Assembly (NCBI RefSeq): GCF_038096165.1
Contig: NZ_CP151076.1
Span: 3,655,501-3,719,500, forward strand
Reading direction: 5' to 3'
DNA length: 64,000 bases
Origin: Pseudomonas sp. G.S.17
Lineage (GTDB): Bacteria; Pseudomonadota; Gammaproteobacteria; Pseudomonadales; Pseudomonadaceae
Positions 35,770 through 43,106 of the stretch are shown piece after piece (position 1 is the first letter of the stretch; every line of letters starts with the position of its first letter). The position numbers were made by a program, and so were the translations under genes. The notes beneath the pieces were generated by a model. That model had not been told where the DNA came from. It did not search any database and saw nothing but the letters and a program-made list of their open reading frames with translations.

Positions 35770-36303
35770 TCAATCCACGGAAATATTCACCGAAGTTTCC
35801 GGCTTCGCTGCCGCAGGCTTCTTGGGCAGCGTGATATTCAGCACGCCCCTGCTGAAATGCGCCTGAATATGCTCGGCATCCACACCTGTGGGCAGGCTGA
35901 AGGTTCTTTCGAACTGCCCATAACGGCGTTCTGTCAGGTGATAGTTGGCGGATGAGTCCGACTTTTCCTCGCGCTTTTCGCCCTTGATCCGCAGATTGCC
36001 GTCGATGACCTTGACGGTCAGGCTCTGCTCGTCCGCGCCGGGCACTTCAGCGGCGATTTCGTAGGTGGTTGCGGTTTCCCGAATATCCACGGCAGGCGCC
36101 TGGACGCCGGAAAACTCCCCTGACCAGAACGGCTGCACATCAAACCGGCCGCTGCGGGAAAGGATTGAAGGCAGGCTATTGAATTCGTTCAGCAGATGGT
36201 CGAACTGCTGACGAATGCGGTCCAGCGGATGCCAGTTGCCGGGGCGGGTCGCCGGCTTTTTTTCATCTTCAGGCGTCGGAGTTTTTTGCTCGGAATCATT
36301 CAT
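35770..36303 (-). CDS. Hsp20 / small heat-shock protein
   Basis: 177 residues with the alpha-crystallin domain from about residue 65 (VDIRETATTYEIAAEVPGADEQSLTVKVIDGNLRIKGEKREE broken into pieces: AAEVPGADEQSL, GNLRIKGEKREE) to HFSRGVLNITLPKKPAA, including the typical G-V-L-x-I/V motif GVLNITLP. The N-terminal part has WHPLDRIRQQFDHLLNEF. It holds unfolded proteins in soluble oligomers. No ROSE-type thermosensor was evident upstream. Confidence 0.9.
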   Translation of the reverse strand: MNDSEQKTPTPEDEKKPATRPGNWHPLDRIRQQFDHLLNEFNSLPSILSRSGRFDVQPFWSGEFSGVQAPAVDIRETATTYEIAAEVPGADEQSLTVKVIDGNLRIKGEKREEKSDSSANYHLTERRYGQFERTFSLPTGVDAEHIQAHFSRGVLNITLPKKPAAAKPETSVNISVD

Positions 36304-36506: not shown

Positions 36507-36830
36507 TCAGTAGAGACGATCAACAACACGGACGTCGGACTGTTGTTGTGTGGCGATCCATTCATTCTTCAGGGTTTGCAGAACCCGGTTCATGAACACT
36601 TTGTCGGCGGCGGCTTTCTTGCCAACGTAGCCATGGCCGCGACGGTAGGTCCGCAGACGGGCCCGCATTTCCGGGTGGCTCTTGCCGAATTCGTTTTCCT
36701 GGCAAGTCAGCGGATCGACATGAACATCGCCTTCGTCGCTGATCCACAATACATGGCTGTCCAGACTGTCTTTGCGCGCGGCGAACAATTGGGCCAGTTC
36801 ATCAATAGTAGGTTGTTTGTTCAAATTCAT
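36507..36830 (-). CDS. Conserved small hypothetical protein
   Basis: 107 residues starting MNLNKQPTIDELAQLFAARKDSL. No signal or membrane segment. The sequence is polar and charged, with WISDEGDVHVDPLTC, then RLRTYRRGHGYVGKKAAADKVFMNRVL. A clear own terminator follows and an inverted repeat ATTAG-TTAG-CTAAT lies 36 bp upstream of the start, so it is a real, independently regulated gene. I do not recognise the family. Confidence 0.75.
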   Translation of the reverse strand: MNLNKQPTIDELAQLFAARKDSLDSHVLWISDEGDVHVDPLTCQENEFGKSHPEMRARLRTYRRGHGYVGKKAAADKVFMNRVLQTLKNEWIATQQQSDVRVVDRLY

Positions 36831-37387: not shown

Positions 37388-39343
37388 TCAGAGAGCCGTC
37401 GGTGAGCTCTCGAGCATCTTGCGGACTTTCTCCAGCAGCGCGTTCAATTTGAACGGCTTGATGACCATATCCATGCGTTCGCCGAGGAAACGTTGACGGT
37501 TTACCGCGTTTTCCGCGTAACCGGTCATGAACAGCACTGGCAGGTTTTCCCGCCATACCCGTGCGCGGTCGGCCAGTTCCCGGCCGTTCATGTGTGGCAG
37601 GCCAACGTCGGACAGCAACAGATCCACCGAAGGATCGTTCTCGAGAATATCCAGAGCGGTGGCGACGTCTGCGGCCTGCGTGCAGCGGTAACCGTTGTCC
37701 ACCAGCAGCTCGCTGACGAACATTCGCACCGATGCCGTGTCCTCGACGATGAGAATATGCTCCCCGGTACCCGGCTGGACCGGCATTCCGGGTTCCGCTT
37801 GTGCAGGCAGGACGTCGATGGCTGCCGGAATCATCAGCGTCACTTCGGTGCCATGCCCGGCAACGCTGCGAATCAGTACGTCACCACCGGACTGCCTGGC
37901 GAAGCCGTAGATGGTCGAAAGCCCGAGCCCGGTGCCTTCGCCAATGGGTTTGGTGGTGAAGAATGGATCGAATACCTTATCGATCACGCTGTGATCGATG
38001 CCGATGCCGTCATCCTTGACCGACAACGCGATATACGCCCCGTCAGCCACACGCTGATCGCCTTTGGAGTGCGCAGCAAAGGTCGTGACGCGCACGTTGC
38101 CGCCGCCGGGAAGGGCATCCCGCGCGTTGATGACAAGATTGAGTATCGCGCTTTCCAGCTGGCTGGAATCCACCAACGCTACGGCTGATTTTGAGGTCAG
38201 GTCCAGGGTCAGCGTGATGCGCTTGCCGATGGTGCGACTGAGCAAATCTTCCAGGGAACGGATGTGCTCGTTGACATCGATCGGCCGGGCATCCAGTGGC
38301 TGCTGGCGAGCAAACGCCAACAATCGATGGGTCAAGGCCGCGGCGCTCATGGCCGAAGCCAGGGCCGCGTCGGCATAGCGCGCGACCCGTTCCGGACGAT
38401 TTTCAGCGGTGCGTTTTTTGATCAGCTCGATGCCGGTGATGATCCCGGTCAGCAAGTTGTTGAAATCGTGGGCAATGCCGCCGGTTAGCTTGCCGATGGC
38501 ATCCATCTTCTGCGCCTGCAACAGCTGTGCTTCGGTGCGTGCGCGCTCGGCGACTTCATGGGCCAGCCGCGTGTTGACACTGTCGAGCTGGCGCAGATGC
38601 GATTGCTCACGCTGACGATGCTCGGTGACATCCTCGACGAAAACCAGACTCAGTTCCGGCGTGCGGTACGGAGAAATCTGCCACTCGGTTTCCCGGACTT
38701 CGCCTTTGACCGACATCAACAGCGTGCCTCTCCAGCGCTCTCCCGCCAGCAGTCCGGCGCGCAGTTGCTGAATGATGTCGTCCTGATCTGCCGCCAGGGA
38801 GTCGAGCATCGTGTGCTGGGAAATACTTTTCTGAATCAGCTGGGCGAACGCGTGGTTGCACTCATGCACTTTGAGGTCGGCGTCCATCACCGCAATCGGC
38901 GCGGAAATGTTGACGAAGATTTCCCGAAACCGTGCCTCGCTCTCGCGCAGGGCGTATTCGGTGTCGCGCACTCGCAACAGCGTGCGCAGGGTTGCCAGCA
39001 AAACATCGGCATCCACCGGATGCACCAGATAGGCATCCGCACCGGCTTCAAGACCGGTGACGATATCGGCCGTCTGGATCGAGGCCGCCGACACATGTAC
39101 AACCGGCAACAGCGCCGTGCGCGGCTCAGAGCGCAGCAGGCGCACGATGTCAAAACCGCTCATGTCCGGAAGGTTGACGTCGAGAATCAGCGCATCCGGC
39201 GCTTCAGAAGCAATCAGCGCCAGGCCTTCATTGCCGGTGCCGGCCTCAAGCACGACAAAGTCATGAAGCTCCATGCGCCTCCGCAAGGCATAGCGCGTGG
39301 CGGCGTTGTCATCGACGATCAACAGCCGGATTTCACGCCTCAT
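37388..39343 (-). CDS. Hybrid histidine kinase of stressosome operon (REC-PAS-HisKA-HATPase-REC)
   Basis: About 651 residues, soluble. Receiver 1 has the phospho-Asp in ALILDVNLPDMSGF (Asp55). A PAS domain follows (REIFVNISAPIAVMDADLKV). The HisKA box is GGIAHDFNNLLTGI; HATPase boxes are NLVINARDALPGGG, KDDGIGI and GTGLGLSTIYGF. Receiver 2 ends the protein (LLLSDVGLPHMNG, then FMTGYAEN and IKPF). No output domain is present. The start at 39343 overlaps the preceding kinase gene by 11 bp. As the last gene of the stressosome operon it could receive phosphate from the upstream kinase and act as a hub. Confidence 0.88.
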   Translation of the reverse strand: MRREIRLLIVDDNAATRYALRRRMELHDFVVLEAGTGNEGLALIASEAPDALILDVNLPDMSGFDIVRLLRSEPRTALLPVVHVSAASIQTADIVTGLEAGADAYLVHPVDADVLLATLRTLLRVRDTEYALRESEARFREIFVNISAPIAVMDADLKVHECNHAFAQLIQKSISQHTMLDSLAADQDDIIQQLRAGLLAGERWRGTLLMSVKGEVRETEWQISPYRTPELSLVFVEDVTEHRQREQSHLRQLDSVNTRLAHEVAERARTEAQLLQAQKMDAIGKLTGGIAHDFNNLLTGIITGIELIKKRTAENRPERVARYADAALASAMSAAALTHRLLAFARQQPLDARPIDVNEHIRSLEDLLSRTIGKRITLTLDLTSKSAVALVDSSQLESAILNLVINARDALPGGGNVRVTTFAAHSKGDQRVADGAYIALSVKDDGIGIDHSVIDKVFDPFFTTKPIGEGTGLGLSTIYGFARQSGGDVLIRSVAGHGTEVTLMIPAAIDVLPAQAEPGMPVQPGTGEHILIVEDTASVRMFVSELLVDNGYRCTQAADVATALDILENDPSVDLLLSDVGLPHMNGRELADRARVWRENLPVLFMTGYAENAVNRQRFLGERMDMVIKPFKLNALLEKVRKMLESSPTAL

Positions 39344-40208
39344 CGGCAGGCTCCCCGGCAATTGCCAGCGGAATGATGATGAAGAAGGTCGAGCCGACGC
39401 CAGGCTTGCTCTGTACCCCTACCCGCCCGCCCAACAGCTCGGCGAAGCGTCTGCACAGCGACAATCCAAGGCCGGTGCCGCGCCATCGCTTTTGCAGCGG
39501 CGAGTCGATCTGCGAGAAATCCTCGAACAGCTCACCAAGCATTTCTTCCGGGATACCCACGCCGGTATCGGTGACGGCGAAACGCACTTCGTGATCATTT
39601 TCCAGGCGAGCCGAGACCCGAACCTCACCGCGCTGGGTGAACTTCAGGGAGTTGGAGATAAAGTTACGCAGGATCTGCCCGAGTTTTTTGTCATCGGTGA
39701 ACAACCGTGGCAAGCCAATGGGCTCTTCGAAAATCAGGTCCACCGAAGACATATTGACGATCGGGCGGAACATGCCGCGCAAGGCTGCAAACAAGTCAAA
39801 CATGTCGAACCAGGCCGGGGAAATGGTGATGCGTCCGGCCTCGATCTTGGCCAGATCCAGCAGATCATCGACCATGTCGGACAGCTCACGTGCGGCAGTG
39901 CTGATAAACGCAACCTGCCGATGCTGCTCGGTGGCCAACGGCCCATCGATTTCATCGGTGAGCAGGCTGGAAATACTCAGGATCGAACCCAGAGGCGTGC
40001 GGAATTCGTGGCTCATGTAGGACAGGAAGCGGCTTTTCAGATCCGAAGCCTGGCGCAGTTCATTGGCCTGATTGTCCAGTTCGGCATACAACGCGAGCAC
40101 GCCCTGATTGGTTTCATCGAGTTCGGTGCGCAAGGCATCGGCTTCAGCCTGCACGCGGGCCAGCTCAAGAGCGAGGGCATTCGAGTCGGCGGGGGTTGAC
40201 TCAGGCAT
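39333..40208 (-). CDS. Histidine kinase of stressosome operon
   Basis: About 291 residues, soluble. An N-terminal coiled coil (ELARVQAEADALRTELDET, NQGVLALYAELDNQANEL) leads to the HisKA box SRFLSYMSHEFRTPLGSI and HATPase boxes NFISNSLKFTQ, VTDTGVGI and GTGLGLSLC. There is no sensor domain, so input must come from a partner protein, most simply RsbT or the RsbT-PP2C fusion encoded just upstream. The start overlaps the stop of that fusion gene by 8 bp, and its end overlaps the hybrid kinase. Confidence 0.87.
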   Translation of the reverse strand: MPESTPADSNALALELARVQAEADALRTELDETNQGVLALYAELDNQANELRQASDLKSRFLSYMSHEFRTPLGSILSISSLLTDEIDGPLATEQHRQVAFISTAARELSDMVDDLLDLAKIEAGRITISPAWFDMFDLFAALRGMFRPIVNMSSVDLIFEEPIGLPRLFTDDKKLGQILRNFISNSLKFTQRGEVRVSARLENDHEVRFAVTDTGVGIPEEMLGELFEDFSQIDSPLQKRWRGTGLGLSLCRRFAELLGGRVGVQSKPGVGSTFFIIIPLAIAGEPADEA

Positions 40209-41217
40209 TTGCAGTCTCCAGGGCAATCACTAAAACAGTCACATCATCACGACCCCGGCAAAAATCGCGATGCAGCACTGCCGCGATGACCGCCGGATGG
40301 CGGAACGCCAACCCGGCATACTCGCGCAGATCCCAACGTGATTGCAGTCCGTCGCTGTACATGATCAACAATTGGCCACCGATCTGAGGGAAGTCGAACG
40401 TCTGGGCCTTGCGAAATTGCAGCCCTACGATACCCGGATGAGAAGCCAGGCCGCGAGGTCGCTCTGCGCCGATCAACGTACCGCCAATATTGCCGATACC
40501 GACGAATCGCAATGAATCGCCGACACCGTCAAATTGCGCAACAGCAACGGCGCCGCCTCGGGTGCCGCGCATGGCGTCGTGCATTTCTTCTAATGTGAAC
40601 ACTGGAGAGGCAAAAGGTTGTCTGGCAAATGCATTTTCCCCTGCCCGTGCCGCAAGCTCCGCGTCTTCGCCATGGCCCAGGCCGTCAATCATCAAGACGC
40701 TGATCCAGCCCTCCTTGATCGCAACTGACCAGACATCGCCGCAGGCCGGGTCGCCACCCAGCGAATGCTGGCTGACGCCGAACCTGACGTCGCTGATCGA
40801 TTGTCCACGGGGAAAGAACCGCGCCAGCACCACCGAGCCACGCGCGTCGGAATGGACATCGAAGACATCCGCCTGACGGGAAATCGCGCCCAGCCCGATG
40901 CCTTGGGTACCACGGGTGGAAAACCCGTCCGTCAGGCAATCATGCACATCGAAGCCAGGGCCACGGTCGACTGCAATCACCTCGATGCCTTGCAAGGAAG
41001 GCGAGCGGAACGTGCGCAAGTGCAGCTCGCCGCGCGTCGCATGCTTGAGCAGATTGCTGGCCAGCTCGGTGGTCACCAATGCCGCGCGACCGGCATCGGC
41101 TTCGCAGAAATCCAGCGCCTCGGCCAATTGCTGAACCGTGCGCCTGGCGTGTCCAACCTGGCTGCTGTCTTCGATCAACAACACCTGCGTCAGGGTGCTG
41201 CGCAGCATCATACCCAT
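40201..41217 (-). CDS. Switch-kinase/PP2C fusion (RsbT/W-like ATPase + SpoIIE/RsbX-like phosphatase)
   Basis: 338 residues in two domains. Residues about 10-135 are a GHKL anti-sigma-type ATPase (VTTELASNLLKHAT, VDRGPGF, GTQGIGLGAISR). Residues about 145-335 are a PP2C/SpoIIE phosphatase (GGDPACGDVWSV, LMIDGLGHGEDAELAA, LLIMYSDGLQSRWDL, RGRDDVTVLVI) with metal-binding Asp. In stressosomes RsbX dephosphorylates RsbR/RsbS. The start at 41217 overlaps rsbT by 10 bp; 41211 and 41208 are also possible. Confidence 0.87.
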   Translation of the reverse strand: MGMMLRSTLTQVLLIEDSSQVGHARRTVQQLAEALDFCEADAGRAALVTTELASNLLKHATRGELHLRTFRSPSLQGIEVIAVDRGPGFDVHDCLTDGFSTRGTQGIGLGAISRQADVFDVHSDARGSVVLARFFPRGQSISDVRFGVSQHSLGGDPACGDVWSVAIKEGWISVLMIDGLGHGEDAELAARAGENAFARQPFASPVFTLEEMHDAMRGTRGGAVAVAQFDGVGDSLRFVGIGNIGGTLIGAERPRGLASHPGIVGLQFRKAQTFDFPQIGGQLLIMYSDGLQSRWDLREYAGLAFRHPAVIAAVLHRDFCRGRDDVTVLVIALETANA

Positions 41218-41612
41218 CGGGTAATCATCACCCGAGTGCCCGCGCCGGGCGCGGTGTCCAGTTCAAACTCGTCCACCAGACGCTTGGCGCCGGTCAGGCC
41301 CAGGCCCATGCCTTTGCCGGATGTCCAGCCATCGGTCATGGCCATTTTGAGATCAGCGATGCCTGGGCCTTCGTCGCGGAACGTGATGCGCAAGCCGGTA
41401 CGCAGATTGTCATCGAGGATTTGCCAGTCCATATGCCCGCCTCCGCCGTACACCATAGTGTTGCGGGCGAGCTCACTGACCGCCGTGACCATTTTGGTCA
41501 GGTCGATCAGGCGCATTCCGCACTCCTGGGCGAGCCTGCGCGCCGTCTGGCGCGCCAATACGACATCTTGTTCGATCAGCACGGGTTGGGAACCCTCGCT
41601 TCGCACGGTCAT
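41208..41612 (-). CDS. rsbT: RsbT-like serine/threonine switch kinase
   Basis: 134 residues, a single GHKL ATPase domain as in B. subtilis RsbT. The N box is MVTAVSELARNTMVYGGGG, the G1 box RDEGPGIADL, and the G2 box GKGMGLGLTGAKRLVD. RsbT phosphorylates RsbR and RsbS within the stressosome, is then released and activates a downstream partner. Its ATG overlaps the rsbS stop (ATGA). With no RsbU-type gene nearby, released RsbT may act on the fusion phosphatase or the histidine kinase. Confidence 0.9.
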   Translation of the reverse strand: MTVRSEGSQPVLIEQDVVLARQTARRLAQECGMRLIDLTKMVTAVSELARNTMVYGGGGHMDWQILDDNLRTGLRITFRDEGPGIADLKMAMTDGWTSGKGMGLGLTGAKRLVDEFELDTAPGAGTRVMITRWV

Positions 41613-41971
41613 TGGGCATGCGCTCGCTCGTGCAGCAACTTCATGCCACGCTCGACATTGAGCGCGGTGCTGACGCCGGGCAAGGTCATGCCCAGTTCGA
41701 CCAGTGTGATCGCCACGGCAGGCTGCATGCCGACCAGCACGGTTTCGGCGTCCATGATCCGCGACAGGCCGGAAATCGTGCCGATCATGCGTCCGACGAA
41801 CGAATCGACAATATCCAGCGCCGAAATATCGATGAGCACACCACGCGCGGAAGTCTTGCTAATGAGTTCGGAGAGGTCATCCTGCAGGTTCAGGGCGAGC
41901 TGATCATGCATGTCCACTTGAATCGTGACGAGCAGGTAAGCGCCCATCTGCAGAATCGGAATACGTTCCAT
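41609..41971 (-). CDS. rsbS: RsbS-like STAS-domain stressosome scaffold
   Basis: 120 residues, one STAS domain. It begins IPILQMGAYLLVTIQVDMHD, very like RsbS, and carries the phosphorylatable Ser57 in SALDIVDSFVGRMIG, equivalent to B. subtilis Ser59. A conserved VLVGMQPAVAITLVELG helix follows. RsbS co-assembles with RsbR into the large stressosome core that holds RsbT. It starts 4 bp after the rsbR stop. Confidence 0.9.
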   Translation of the reverse strand: MERIPILQMGAYLLVTIQVDMHDQLALNLQDDLSELISKTSARGVLIDISALDIVDSFVGRMIGTISGLSRIMDAETVLVGMQPAVAITLVELGMTLPGVSTALNVERGMKLLHERAHAQ

Positions 41972-41975
41972 GGGC

Positions 41976-42827
41976 CTACACCGCCTTGGTGACGGTCAAA
42001 CCCAGACGACGCAGGGCCAGCGCCAGGGCGTCGGCAAGATTGGCCTTGGTGACCACGCCTTGCAGATCCAGACCCAGGTGCACGATGGTCTGCGCGATTT
42101 GCGGGCGCACGCCGCTGATGATGCAGTCAGCACCCATCAAGCGAATGGCAGTCACTGTTTTCAACAGGTGCTGGGCAACCAGGGTATCAACGGTTGGCAC
42201 GCCGGTAATGTCGATAATGGCAATCTCGGAGCCGGTGTCGACAATCCGTTGCAGCAGCGATTCCATGACCACTTGGGTACGTTGTGAATCCAGAGTGCCG
42301 ATCATCGGCAGTGCCAGCACGCCATCCCACAGTTTCACCACGGGCGTGGACAGCTCAAGCAGTTCTTCCTGCTGGCGCTTGATCACCGCTTCCCGGGATT
42401 TCTGGAAAGTACGAATGGTGTGCATGCCCAAGGCATCCAGCAGCTCGGACATTTCCAGAACCTGCTCGGCAAGCAGCGTCGGGCTGTCTTCGTATTCGCT
42501 TTGCAGCATCGCGAACAACGGGCCTTTTAACGAGAAAATAAAGCTGGCGGTCTGTTGCGAATCCTGGCCGCTAAGGGCGCGACTGTGGGAGAGTTTTTCC
42601 AGGAACAGACGAATATCATCCCAGTCGCTGCCACCCAGCGACTGATGGCTGCCCTTCTCTGCCACGGAAATCACCAGACGCAGAAAGTCACCCGCCTGCA
42701 ACCTCAGATCTTCTTCCTTGATATTGCGCGTCGCGCCACTCGCTTCCAGGCTGGCAAGCCATTTGGAGGTCAGCCCGGCCTGGGATTTTTTCAGTGCTTC
42801 AACGGTACGCTGCTGCAGTGCTGCCAT
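41976..42827 (-). CDS. rsbR: RsbR-like stressosome sensor
   Basis: About 283 residues. A helical N-terminal sensory domain (1-150; SKWLASLEASGAT, LEKLSHSRALSGQDSQQTAS) precedes a STAS domain. The STAS phosphosites match RsbR: Thr215 in GVPTVDTLVAQH (B. subtilis Thr171) and Ser238 in DCIISGVRPQIAQT (Thr205, here Ser). The ATG at 42827 has AGGAG 9 bp upstream; a GTG at 42860 precedes that site. No heme or flavin motif is obvious, so the signal is unknown. First gene of the operon, behind an AT-rich 280-bp upstream region. Confidence 0.88.
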   Translation of the reverse strand: MAALQQRTVEALKKSQAGLTSKWLASLEASGATRNIKEEDLRLQAGDFLRLVISVAEKGSHQSLGGSDWDDIRLFLEKLSHSRALSGQDSQQTASFIFSLKGPLFAMLQSEYEDSPTLLAEQVLEMSELLDALGMHTIRTFQKSREAVIKRQQEELLELSTPVVKLWDGVLALPMIGTLDSQRTQVVMESLLQRIVDTGSEIAIIDITGVPTVDTLVAQHLLKTVTAIRLMGADCIISGVRPQIAQTIVHLGLDLQGVVTKANLADALALALRRLGLTVTKAV

Positions 42828-43106
42828 GTTCTTGAACTCCTGGAACAGTGCGGTCTTCACAGCAGAGCTGGAAGAAAAACGAAATAGTGGCTTTTTGACG
42901 AAAAAACAGTCGTTGCGCGGAATTCTCTACACATTGCGGCTAATTGCAAGTATGACAGCGAGGCTGCACGTGGCATTCAAGACACTTTTAAAATAACTAA
43001 AGTTCAAATAAACACATTTTAATCAATCCATTTGGATAGATTACGCTAAATATCAGCAGCATGTTCAATTCAAACAATTATGTGTCGGTGCTTGTTCTGG
43101 ACCACG
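42828..43106 (-). promoter_or_regulatory. AT-rich upstream region of the stressosome operon
   Basis: This gap is much richer in A+T than the flanks (for example TTTTAAAATAACTAAAGTTC around 42985-43010) and contains ATCCA-TT-TGGAT at 43025-43036. It must hold the operon promoter. No unequivocal -35/-10 pair was assigned. Confidence 0.4.

Follow-up and report, generated by a model that had tools for sequence, protein, structure and literature searches.

We analyzed a 64,000-nucleotide stretch of Pseudomonas sp. G.S.17 DNA (contig NZ_CP151076.1, positions 3,655,501 to 3,719,500; hereafter the window), in which a six-gene cassette encodes the stressosome proteins RsbR, RsbS, and RsbT, a phosphatase fused to a second RsbT-like domain, and two histidine kinases. 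On balance, our data favor a model in which this stressosome has its own feedback phosphatase and delivers its output to a dedicated pair of soluble histidine kinases, an RsbT-type switch domain controlling the first kinase via a coil. We consider it likely that a switch protein of either the RsbT or the T2 kind (T2 being the RsbT-like domain of the phosphatase fusion) provides the link to the coil; we lean toward RsbT as the main switch protein, although T2 may take that place. We infer the mechanism from a domain fusion and from co-conservation. The cassette comprises the following features.

rsbR, 41976..42827, minus strand: 283 amino acids from an ATG at 42827 (Pfam, alignment to solved RsbR chains).
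rsbR domains, minus strand: RsbRD_N sensor domain at 42501-42800 and STAS domain at 42066-42338 (Pfam, 68 and 52 bits).
rsbR phosphosite codons, minus strand: Ser181 at 42285-42287 and Thr215 at 42183-42185 (alignment).
rsbS, 41609..41971, minus strand: stand-alone STAS protein of 120 amino acids with Ser57 at 41801-41803 (Pfam; solved relative RsbS 6qcm, 108 bits).
rsbT (switch domain T1), 41208..41612, minus strand: switch kinase of 134 amino acids with intact SELARN, DEGPGI, and GMGLGL motifs (Pfam HATPase).
T2-PP2C fusion gene, 40201..41217, minus strand: RsbT-like HATPase domain T2 at 40798-41217 and RsbX-type PP2C domain at 40204-40785 (Pfam, solved PP2C relatives, tree, motifs).
Sensor-less histidine kinase, 39333..40208, minus strand: 291 amino acids comprising the coil, HisKA (SHEFRTPL from residue 66), and HATPase (Pfam, coil search, motifs).
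Kinase coil, region 40011-40151, minus strand: ETNQGVLALYAEL at residues 32-44 (coil search).
Hybrid kinase, 37388..39343, minus strand: 651 amino acids arranged as REC1-PAS-HisKA-HATPase-REC2 (Pfam, receiver census).
REC1 of the hybrid kinase, 38969-39331, minus strand: Asp55 kept; His108 (39020-39022) in place of the beta5 Lys.
REC2 of the hybrid kinase, 37391-37759, minus strand: Lys kept.

The six minus-strand open reading frames (42827-37388) are all intact and real. A 4-nucleotide gap separates rsbR from rsbS, and the later junctions, with ATG starts, overlap by 4, 10, 8, and 11 nucleotides, confirming a preliminary description of six same-strand genes with overlapping or nearly touching ends. 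The domain reading given there for the six proteins also agrees with Pfam, and a motif check found the ATP-site, H-box, and PP2C motifs across them. Pfam detected neither an Hpt domain nor a DNA-binding regulator among the six genes.

To follow the cassette across genomes, we used samples of 398, 398, and 388 genomes drawn from larger groups, at the level of the genus and of the phylum (Pseudomonadota). RsbT matches occurred in 159 of 398 genus genomes, or 154 after dropping five weak ones (G082, G127, G190, G204, and G369; expectation value (E) 7e-6 to 8e-4, in frames of 494-803 amino acids). A search for the window kinase (E <= 1e-70) was positive in 143 of the 398, and in all 143 an rsbT lay 990-1341 nucleotides upstream on the same strand; none of the 398 held the kinase without RsbT. 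The other 11 rsbT genomes (G013, G023, G028, G054, G146, G161, G280, G291, G343, G379, and G397; six read as whole loci, five as search matches only) have, about 1 kilobase behind rsbT, a 584-634 amino acid frame with another RsbT-like domain, the version described below as T3. This strict co-occurrence of kinase and RsbT (143 of 398 genomes, and a further 11 with the T3 version) supports the model. Second kinase copies were excluded from the counts: G235 has two loci, each with rsbT and kinase, and in G336 the end of contig C96 holds a further piece of the kinase with no rsbT in view.

The named loci from GTDB, the best 80 of 587 confirmed matches and biased to close relatives, gave a similar picture. 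Because L201 and L213 end before the kinase, 78 could be assessed, and a coil kinase occupied the expected slot in 77, including L173, where it is merged with the fusion frame; the sole exception, L207, has T3 and no coil. Loci with a coil kinase span Pseudomonas, Stutzerimonas, Xanthomonas, Stenotrophomonas, Luteibacter, Dyella, Pseudoxanthomonas, Burkholderiales, Planctomycetes, and Actinobacteria. LysR and MFS neighbors are common to only 4 of the 80 (L134, L135, L136, and L188; no common LysR was scored for five weak matches on the other strand, at 46-48 bits, or for one match at 52 bits), indicating that the six-gene block is the conserved unit. With rsbT upstream in 143/143 genomes against flanks common to 4/80 loci, the gene order is kept far beyond chance. 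The differing flanks of most named loci would also suit mere co-inheritance, in which the block stays together at differing genomic sites while kinases and stressosome act separately. We regard this as very improbable, given the overlapping reading frames, the 0/398 genomes with kinase but no RsbT, the T3-kinase fusions in the same slot, and the conservation in Actinobacteria and Planctomycetes.

The fusion on which the model draws was found in 11 of 40 fetched loci (L078-L084 and L113-L116), where the kinase in the same slot starts with an RsbT-like HATPase domain, T3, followed by the same coil. These T3 domains score 65-89 bits to the window RsbT; in addition, L090 has a T3 fragment (20 bits) ahead of the coil, and L095 a more distant T3 (39 bits) without the coil. 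Among the best 120 listed homologs of one T3 kinase (7218 matched), 117 showed the architecture HATPase_c_2+HisKA+HATPase+REC. T3 is carried by HisKA kinases (L114, L207, and L209), by another HisKA type (L078), and by a HisKA_2/HWE kinase (L095). Of 12 T3 domains, 11 (all but that of L090) have an intact N-box and G1 motif. Actinobacterial kinases hold worn-down T3 domains (L204, E 1.6e-13; L205, E 4.6e-12; L197, E 1.4e-4; L211, E 4.4e-5) that lack the N-box Asn and were missed by Pfam alone. In a tree of 63 switch domains, some of them on long branches, T2 formed one clade (100/99) and T3 another (99/97), both apart from RsbT proper.

The window kinase has no T3; it starts shortly before the coil, and its catalytic core groups beside the T3 kinases. 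Kinases without T3 formed a single clade, with support of 99/96 without and 100/99 with an outgroup; the kinase-core trees exclude L078 and L080, which are of another catalytic type, and the tree without outgroup also excludes L207. The neighbors of this clade in the rooted kinase tree carry T3, with a placement support of only 80-88/50-84. Absence of T3 from the window lineage is most likely a loss, which is the simpler reading on a root that is not firm, and control of the kinase would then have to come in trans.

The coil itself is tied to rsbT. A 47-residue stretch around ETNQGVLALYAEL, searched alone, gave 16 matches in 16 of the 388 Pseudomonadota genomes (E <= 1e-4), each 1.0-1.6 kilobases from an rsbT (hypergeometric p 4e-18, uncorrected for relatedness and with the count of 39 rsbT genomes coming from the 398-genome sample). 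The coil is common to kinases with and without T3 and to two catalytic types, and its profile matched 110 of the loci examined (E <= 1e-3). Profile searches did not detect it in the kinases of L092, L093, L094, and L226, which have RsbU_N, nor in the Vibrio-type kinases or five loci with a decayed T3 (L096, L228, L230, L232, and L236). A stretch of the GGDEF-EAL protein of L091 looks like the coil by eye; at E 0.45 among 8261 open reading frames the match is not significant, and we retain it as a weak lead only.

Of the phylum-search loci tabulated, 15 have a T2-PP2C fusion, and the coil is found in 13 of these; it is found in 0 of the 17 that lack the fusion. This table was compiled by hand and excludes L225, L227, L234, L235, and L239, in which no stand-alone rsbT was found; L094, L226, and L233 showed neither rsbR nor rsbS next to their rsbT, and a pair of genomes contributed two loci apiece. 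Because the coil tracks the fusion, T2 rather than RsbT may be its partner: T2 would bind the kinase coil, and the state of the kinase would set the feedback dephosphorylation of the stressosome. The single T2 clade and the position of the fusion gene, which immediately precedes the kinase in the window as in almost every named locus, also fit this alternative. However, the domain that is fused to the kinase, T3, belongs to a separate clade and matches the RsbT query better than the T2 query. Moreover, the DxGxG motif is altered in 8 of 35 T2 domains, which is unexpected for a key switch, yet compatible with binding. We judge T2 as the link to be rather unlikely, and retain RsbT as the preferred partner.

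The joint occurrence of coil and fusion is not the only observation that weighs against the model. The co-occurrence of kinase and RsbT would also be expected if the cassette were inherited or lost as a unit. Whether T3 was lost or gained depends on long-branch outgroups, the direction being open without them, and T3 and the coil are separable, L095 and L207 having T3 without a coil match. We saw no signal that RsbT residues had shifted toward T3 in lineages without T3 (5 sites, versus 4 in the control direction). Finally, excerpts of a study of Vibrio report no binding between VvRsbT and the kinase D1 (VvD1) in the tests published there (PMC9237108).

The hybrid kinase encoded by the sixth gene has an unusual N-terminal receiver. 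The beta5 Lys, normally invariant in receivers to our knowledge, is replaced in 106 of 106 such receivers, most of them close relatives (His 99, Glu 4, Ala 1, Gln 1, and Asp 1), and the phospho-acceptor Asp is kept. As a control, the other receivers in the same loci retain the Lys in 144/144 cases (0/144 without it). Substitutes other than His occur in separate lineages: Glu in four actinobacterial loci, Gln in L079, Ala in L090, and Asp in L209. What follows the receiver varies from PAS-HK-REC (HK, histidine kinase), as in the window, to HK (sister lineages L081 and L083) and PP2C (the four actinobacterial loci). The phosphorelay suggested in the preliminary description needs qualification: the kinase motifs and REC2 are complete, but REC1 has His in place of the conserved Lys, unlike the receivers of a canonical relay. 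In L087, a gene for a LuxR-type regulator comes next, a hint of a transcriptional end point.

These observations can be combined into the following scheme. Under stress, RsbT would phosphorylate RsbR and RsbS and leave the core, as in known stressosomes, and the PP2C domain of the fusion would provide feedback on the stressosome, as in known systems. Free RsbT, or the T2 half of the fusion, would bind the coil ahead of HisKA and switch the first kinase, in a manner that we liken to the stiffening of the RsbU linker by RsbT; in sister lineages the switch domain would be built into the kinase as T3. The first kinase would then work with, and presumably hand over to, REC1 of the hybrid kinase, which keeps its Asp and lacks the Lys, and the signal would exit through REC2 to a further target.

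We found no sign of a sigma-B type output (RsbU-RsbV-RsbW-SigB) or of a target of the RsbU_N type. No SigB-family sigma factor scored above the NCBIfam cutoff anywhere in the genome (best match 136 bits versus 234 for SigBFG), in line with the earlier statement that sigma-B is missing, and Pfam found no RsbU_N in the six proteins, the set to which that search extended. The accompanying statement that RsbV and RsbW are missing holds within the operon only, as the genome contains other STAS, PP2C, and HATPase genes of the partner-switching type. Elsewhere in it lie genes for a REC-PP2C-HATPase protein beside a STAS protein, a REC-PP2C protein beside a STAS protein, and a SpoIIE protein beside DUF6272; by architecture, these three sets resemble HsbR/HsbA, RssB/RssC, and SiaA/SiaB. 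They could form the far end of the path. The central proposal of the preliminary description, two kinases as output instead of a sigma factor, gains support from the co-occurrence with RsbT, the absence of SigB above the cutoff, and the fusion of the histidine kinase to an RsbT-like domain in relatives.

The kinases could conversely act upstream, sensing a signal of their own and feeding it into partner switching, as RsbK and RsbY do for sigma-B in Bacillus cereus. The PAS domain of the hybrid would suit such a role, as would the four actinobacterial loci whose sixth gene encodes REC-PP2C, since REC-PP2C proteins act on anti-anti-sigma factors. We consider this arrangement improbable: the first kinase has no sensor domain, the fused T3 looks like an input handle, and the REC-PP2C version places a phosphatase after the kinase, which fits an output equally well.

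We turned to further proteins that may carry remnants of T3. Five loci of the rsbT-X type (the decayed set named above) continue with a protein that has a decayed RsbT-like N terminus. In profile comparisons this set matched T3 with a probability of 96.5%, RsbT with 95%, and T2 with 90%, versus <1% for two control sets; Pfam confirmed a GGDEF (diguanylate cyclase) domain in L096, L228, and L232, the three of the set that were scanned. The unassigned N terminus (residues 1-165) of the Vibrio/Aeromonas kinase D1 (P0250 and 13 relatives) matched the T3-GGDEF set at 76%, three sets holding T3 at 2.9%, 3.7%, and 37%, T1 at 1.7%, T2 at 4.2%, and the controls at 0.2%. These values are suggestive only of the Vibrio D1 N terminus being a decayed T3.

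The stressosome core has the expected composition. RsbR combines an N-terminal RsbRD_N domain, in the part that varies among RsbR proteins, with a STAS domain holding two phosphosites; among solved RsbR structures, it scores 121 bits with 7o0i and 110 bits with 7b0u. RsbS is a stand-alone STAS protein with a Ser aligned to the one phosphorylated by RsbT. We take 7o0i to be from Vibrio and 7b0u and 6qcm to be from Listeria. Alignment with solved RsbS and RsbR placed Ser57 of RsbS and Thr215 of RsbR, both named in the preliminary description, at known phosphosite positions. Its third site, RsbR Ser238, was misassigned: this residue is the Ser of IISGVRP and lies off the known site, whereas Ser181 occupies that column, which we believe to be numbered T175 in Listeria and T171 in Bacillus. 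Both Ser181 and Thr215 are invariant across 53 aligned sequences, the window included. RsbT is a GHKL-type serine kinase with N-box and G boxes, its solved relatives are anti-sigma F factors (27 bits), and the N-box and G1 motifs were present in 41 of 41 T1 domains examined. The fusion has an RsbX-type phosphatase domain of the PP2C/SpoIIE type with metal-binding Asp residues. Among solved structures, this domain matches PP2C chain 3zt9 at 45 bits and RsbX 3w40 at 16.6 bits (E 0.036); Pfam assigned HATPase_c_2 to the protein and SpoIIE at 22.5 bits, just below the cutoff of 25. L224 and L093 encode the second RsbT-like domain in a gene of its own, ahead of that for a single-domain phosphatase, suggesting that the T2-PP2C fusion may have arisen from neighboring genes.

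Several further details of the cassette and its surroundings were recorded. An AGGAG resembling a Shine-Dalgarno sequence precedes the rsbR ATG at 42827, and an alternative GTG start at 42860 would give 294 amino acids. A scan for promoters and terminators returned no more matches than in shuffles. Close to the downstream end of the cassette is a gene for a 107-amino acid protein (36507-36830); of the 80 named loci, L134, L135, L136, and L188 have it at the same position and L185 has it elsewhere. An Hsp20 gene at 35770-36303 was rejected as a module member, as the 80 named loci, some of them short, held no homolog (E <= 1e-10). Decay or draft errors would explain L111 (G316) and L191 (Pseudomonas sp. 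TH10), in which rsbT is shorter than usual and the hybrid kinase is broken into three frames, the other genes occupying one frame each. Besides a complete cassette (L241), one genome carries a further rsbR-rsbS-rsbT set (L112, G207:C1:2714000-2726500) with a shortened rsbT and without fusion and kinases. In L178 (Stutzerimonas chloritidismutans), rsbR lies about 1.3 kilobases further upstream of rsbS than usual, as if there had been an insertion between them.

The broad idea has precedents: stressosome genes with two-component genes behind them are known from publications on Vibrio and other bacteria. According to the excerpts consulted of Heinz et al. (2022; PMC9237108), rsbRSTX modules precede PP2C, cyclic di-GMP (c-di-GMP), or HisKA/REC modules, and some of these downstream modules have RsbU_N. 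The window cassette is like the stressosome and kinase D1 of V. vulnificus and V. brasiliensis, as far as the excerpts of PMC9237108, PMC4976288, and PMC10014275 go, in having rsbRST, an RsbX-type phosphatase, and two-component genes and no SigB. Mutants of V. vulnificus support a functional link in that system: according to excerpts of Cutugno et al. (2023; PMC10014275), deletion of rsbRSTX and of the downstream kinase gave similar phenotypes. Unlike the Vibrio RsbR, which contains a heme globin, the window RsbR has an RsbRD_N domain with no His column at least 90% conserved in the first 150 residues; its phosphatase is fused to a second RsbT-like domain; and its kinase is short and sensor-less with a coil, whereas the Vibrio-type locus L238 (kinase named V. 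orientalis) has none.

Baral et al. (2025; PMC12143880), again in excerpts, report that RsbT activates RsbU by ordering a coiled-coil linker and mention RsbU_N kinases beside stressosomes. Like those RsbU_N histidine kinases (PMC12143880 and PMC9237108, in part), the window kinase lies directly behind stressosome genes with proposed control by RsbT via a linker; unlike them, it has no RsbU_N, its handle being the coil, to which sister lineages add an RsbT-like domain. According to a citation in the same excerpts of PMC12143880, Moorella thermoacetica has a stressosome with RsbU_N-GGDEF; this too serves a non-sigma output, but one that consists of a c-di-GMP enzyme rather than of histidine kinases. 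As in the Bacillus subtilis sigma-B pathway, there are RsbR, RsbS, RsbT, and RsbX-type proteins with matching phosphosites; in contrast to it, the window operon lacks RsbU, the genome has no SigB above the cutoff, and a kinase pair is the output. Among the titles and abstract openings listed in literature searches, we saw no report of an RsbT-like/kinase fusion, the coil, or a lysine-less receiver in stressosome operons; these three features (T3 fused to the kinase, a coil specific to rsbT loci, and a receiver without the Lys) appear to be new.

Tentatively, and with somewhat less confidence than in the model for the window cassette, we propose a wider picture in which an RsbT-fold handle would connect stressosomes that have no RsbU to their output enzymes. 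This handle would be T3, fused to histidine kinases (HisKA and HWE), decayed on diguanylate cyclases and perhaps on Vibrio D1, and lost in the window lineage, where the coil would be left to RsbT or T2 acting in trans with the lysine-less receiver as partner, making up an old, specialized stressosome-to-two-component wire across Proteobacteria, Planctomycetes, and Actinobacteria. T3, the coil, and the receiver bear on which partner RsbT has in stressosome bacteria devoid of RsbU and SigB, giving three small, testable claims on the missing step. If true, the switch-protein and histidine-kinase branches of signaling would be physically coupled by one recurring module.

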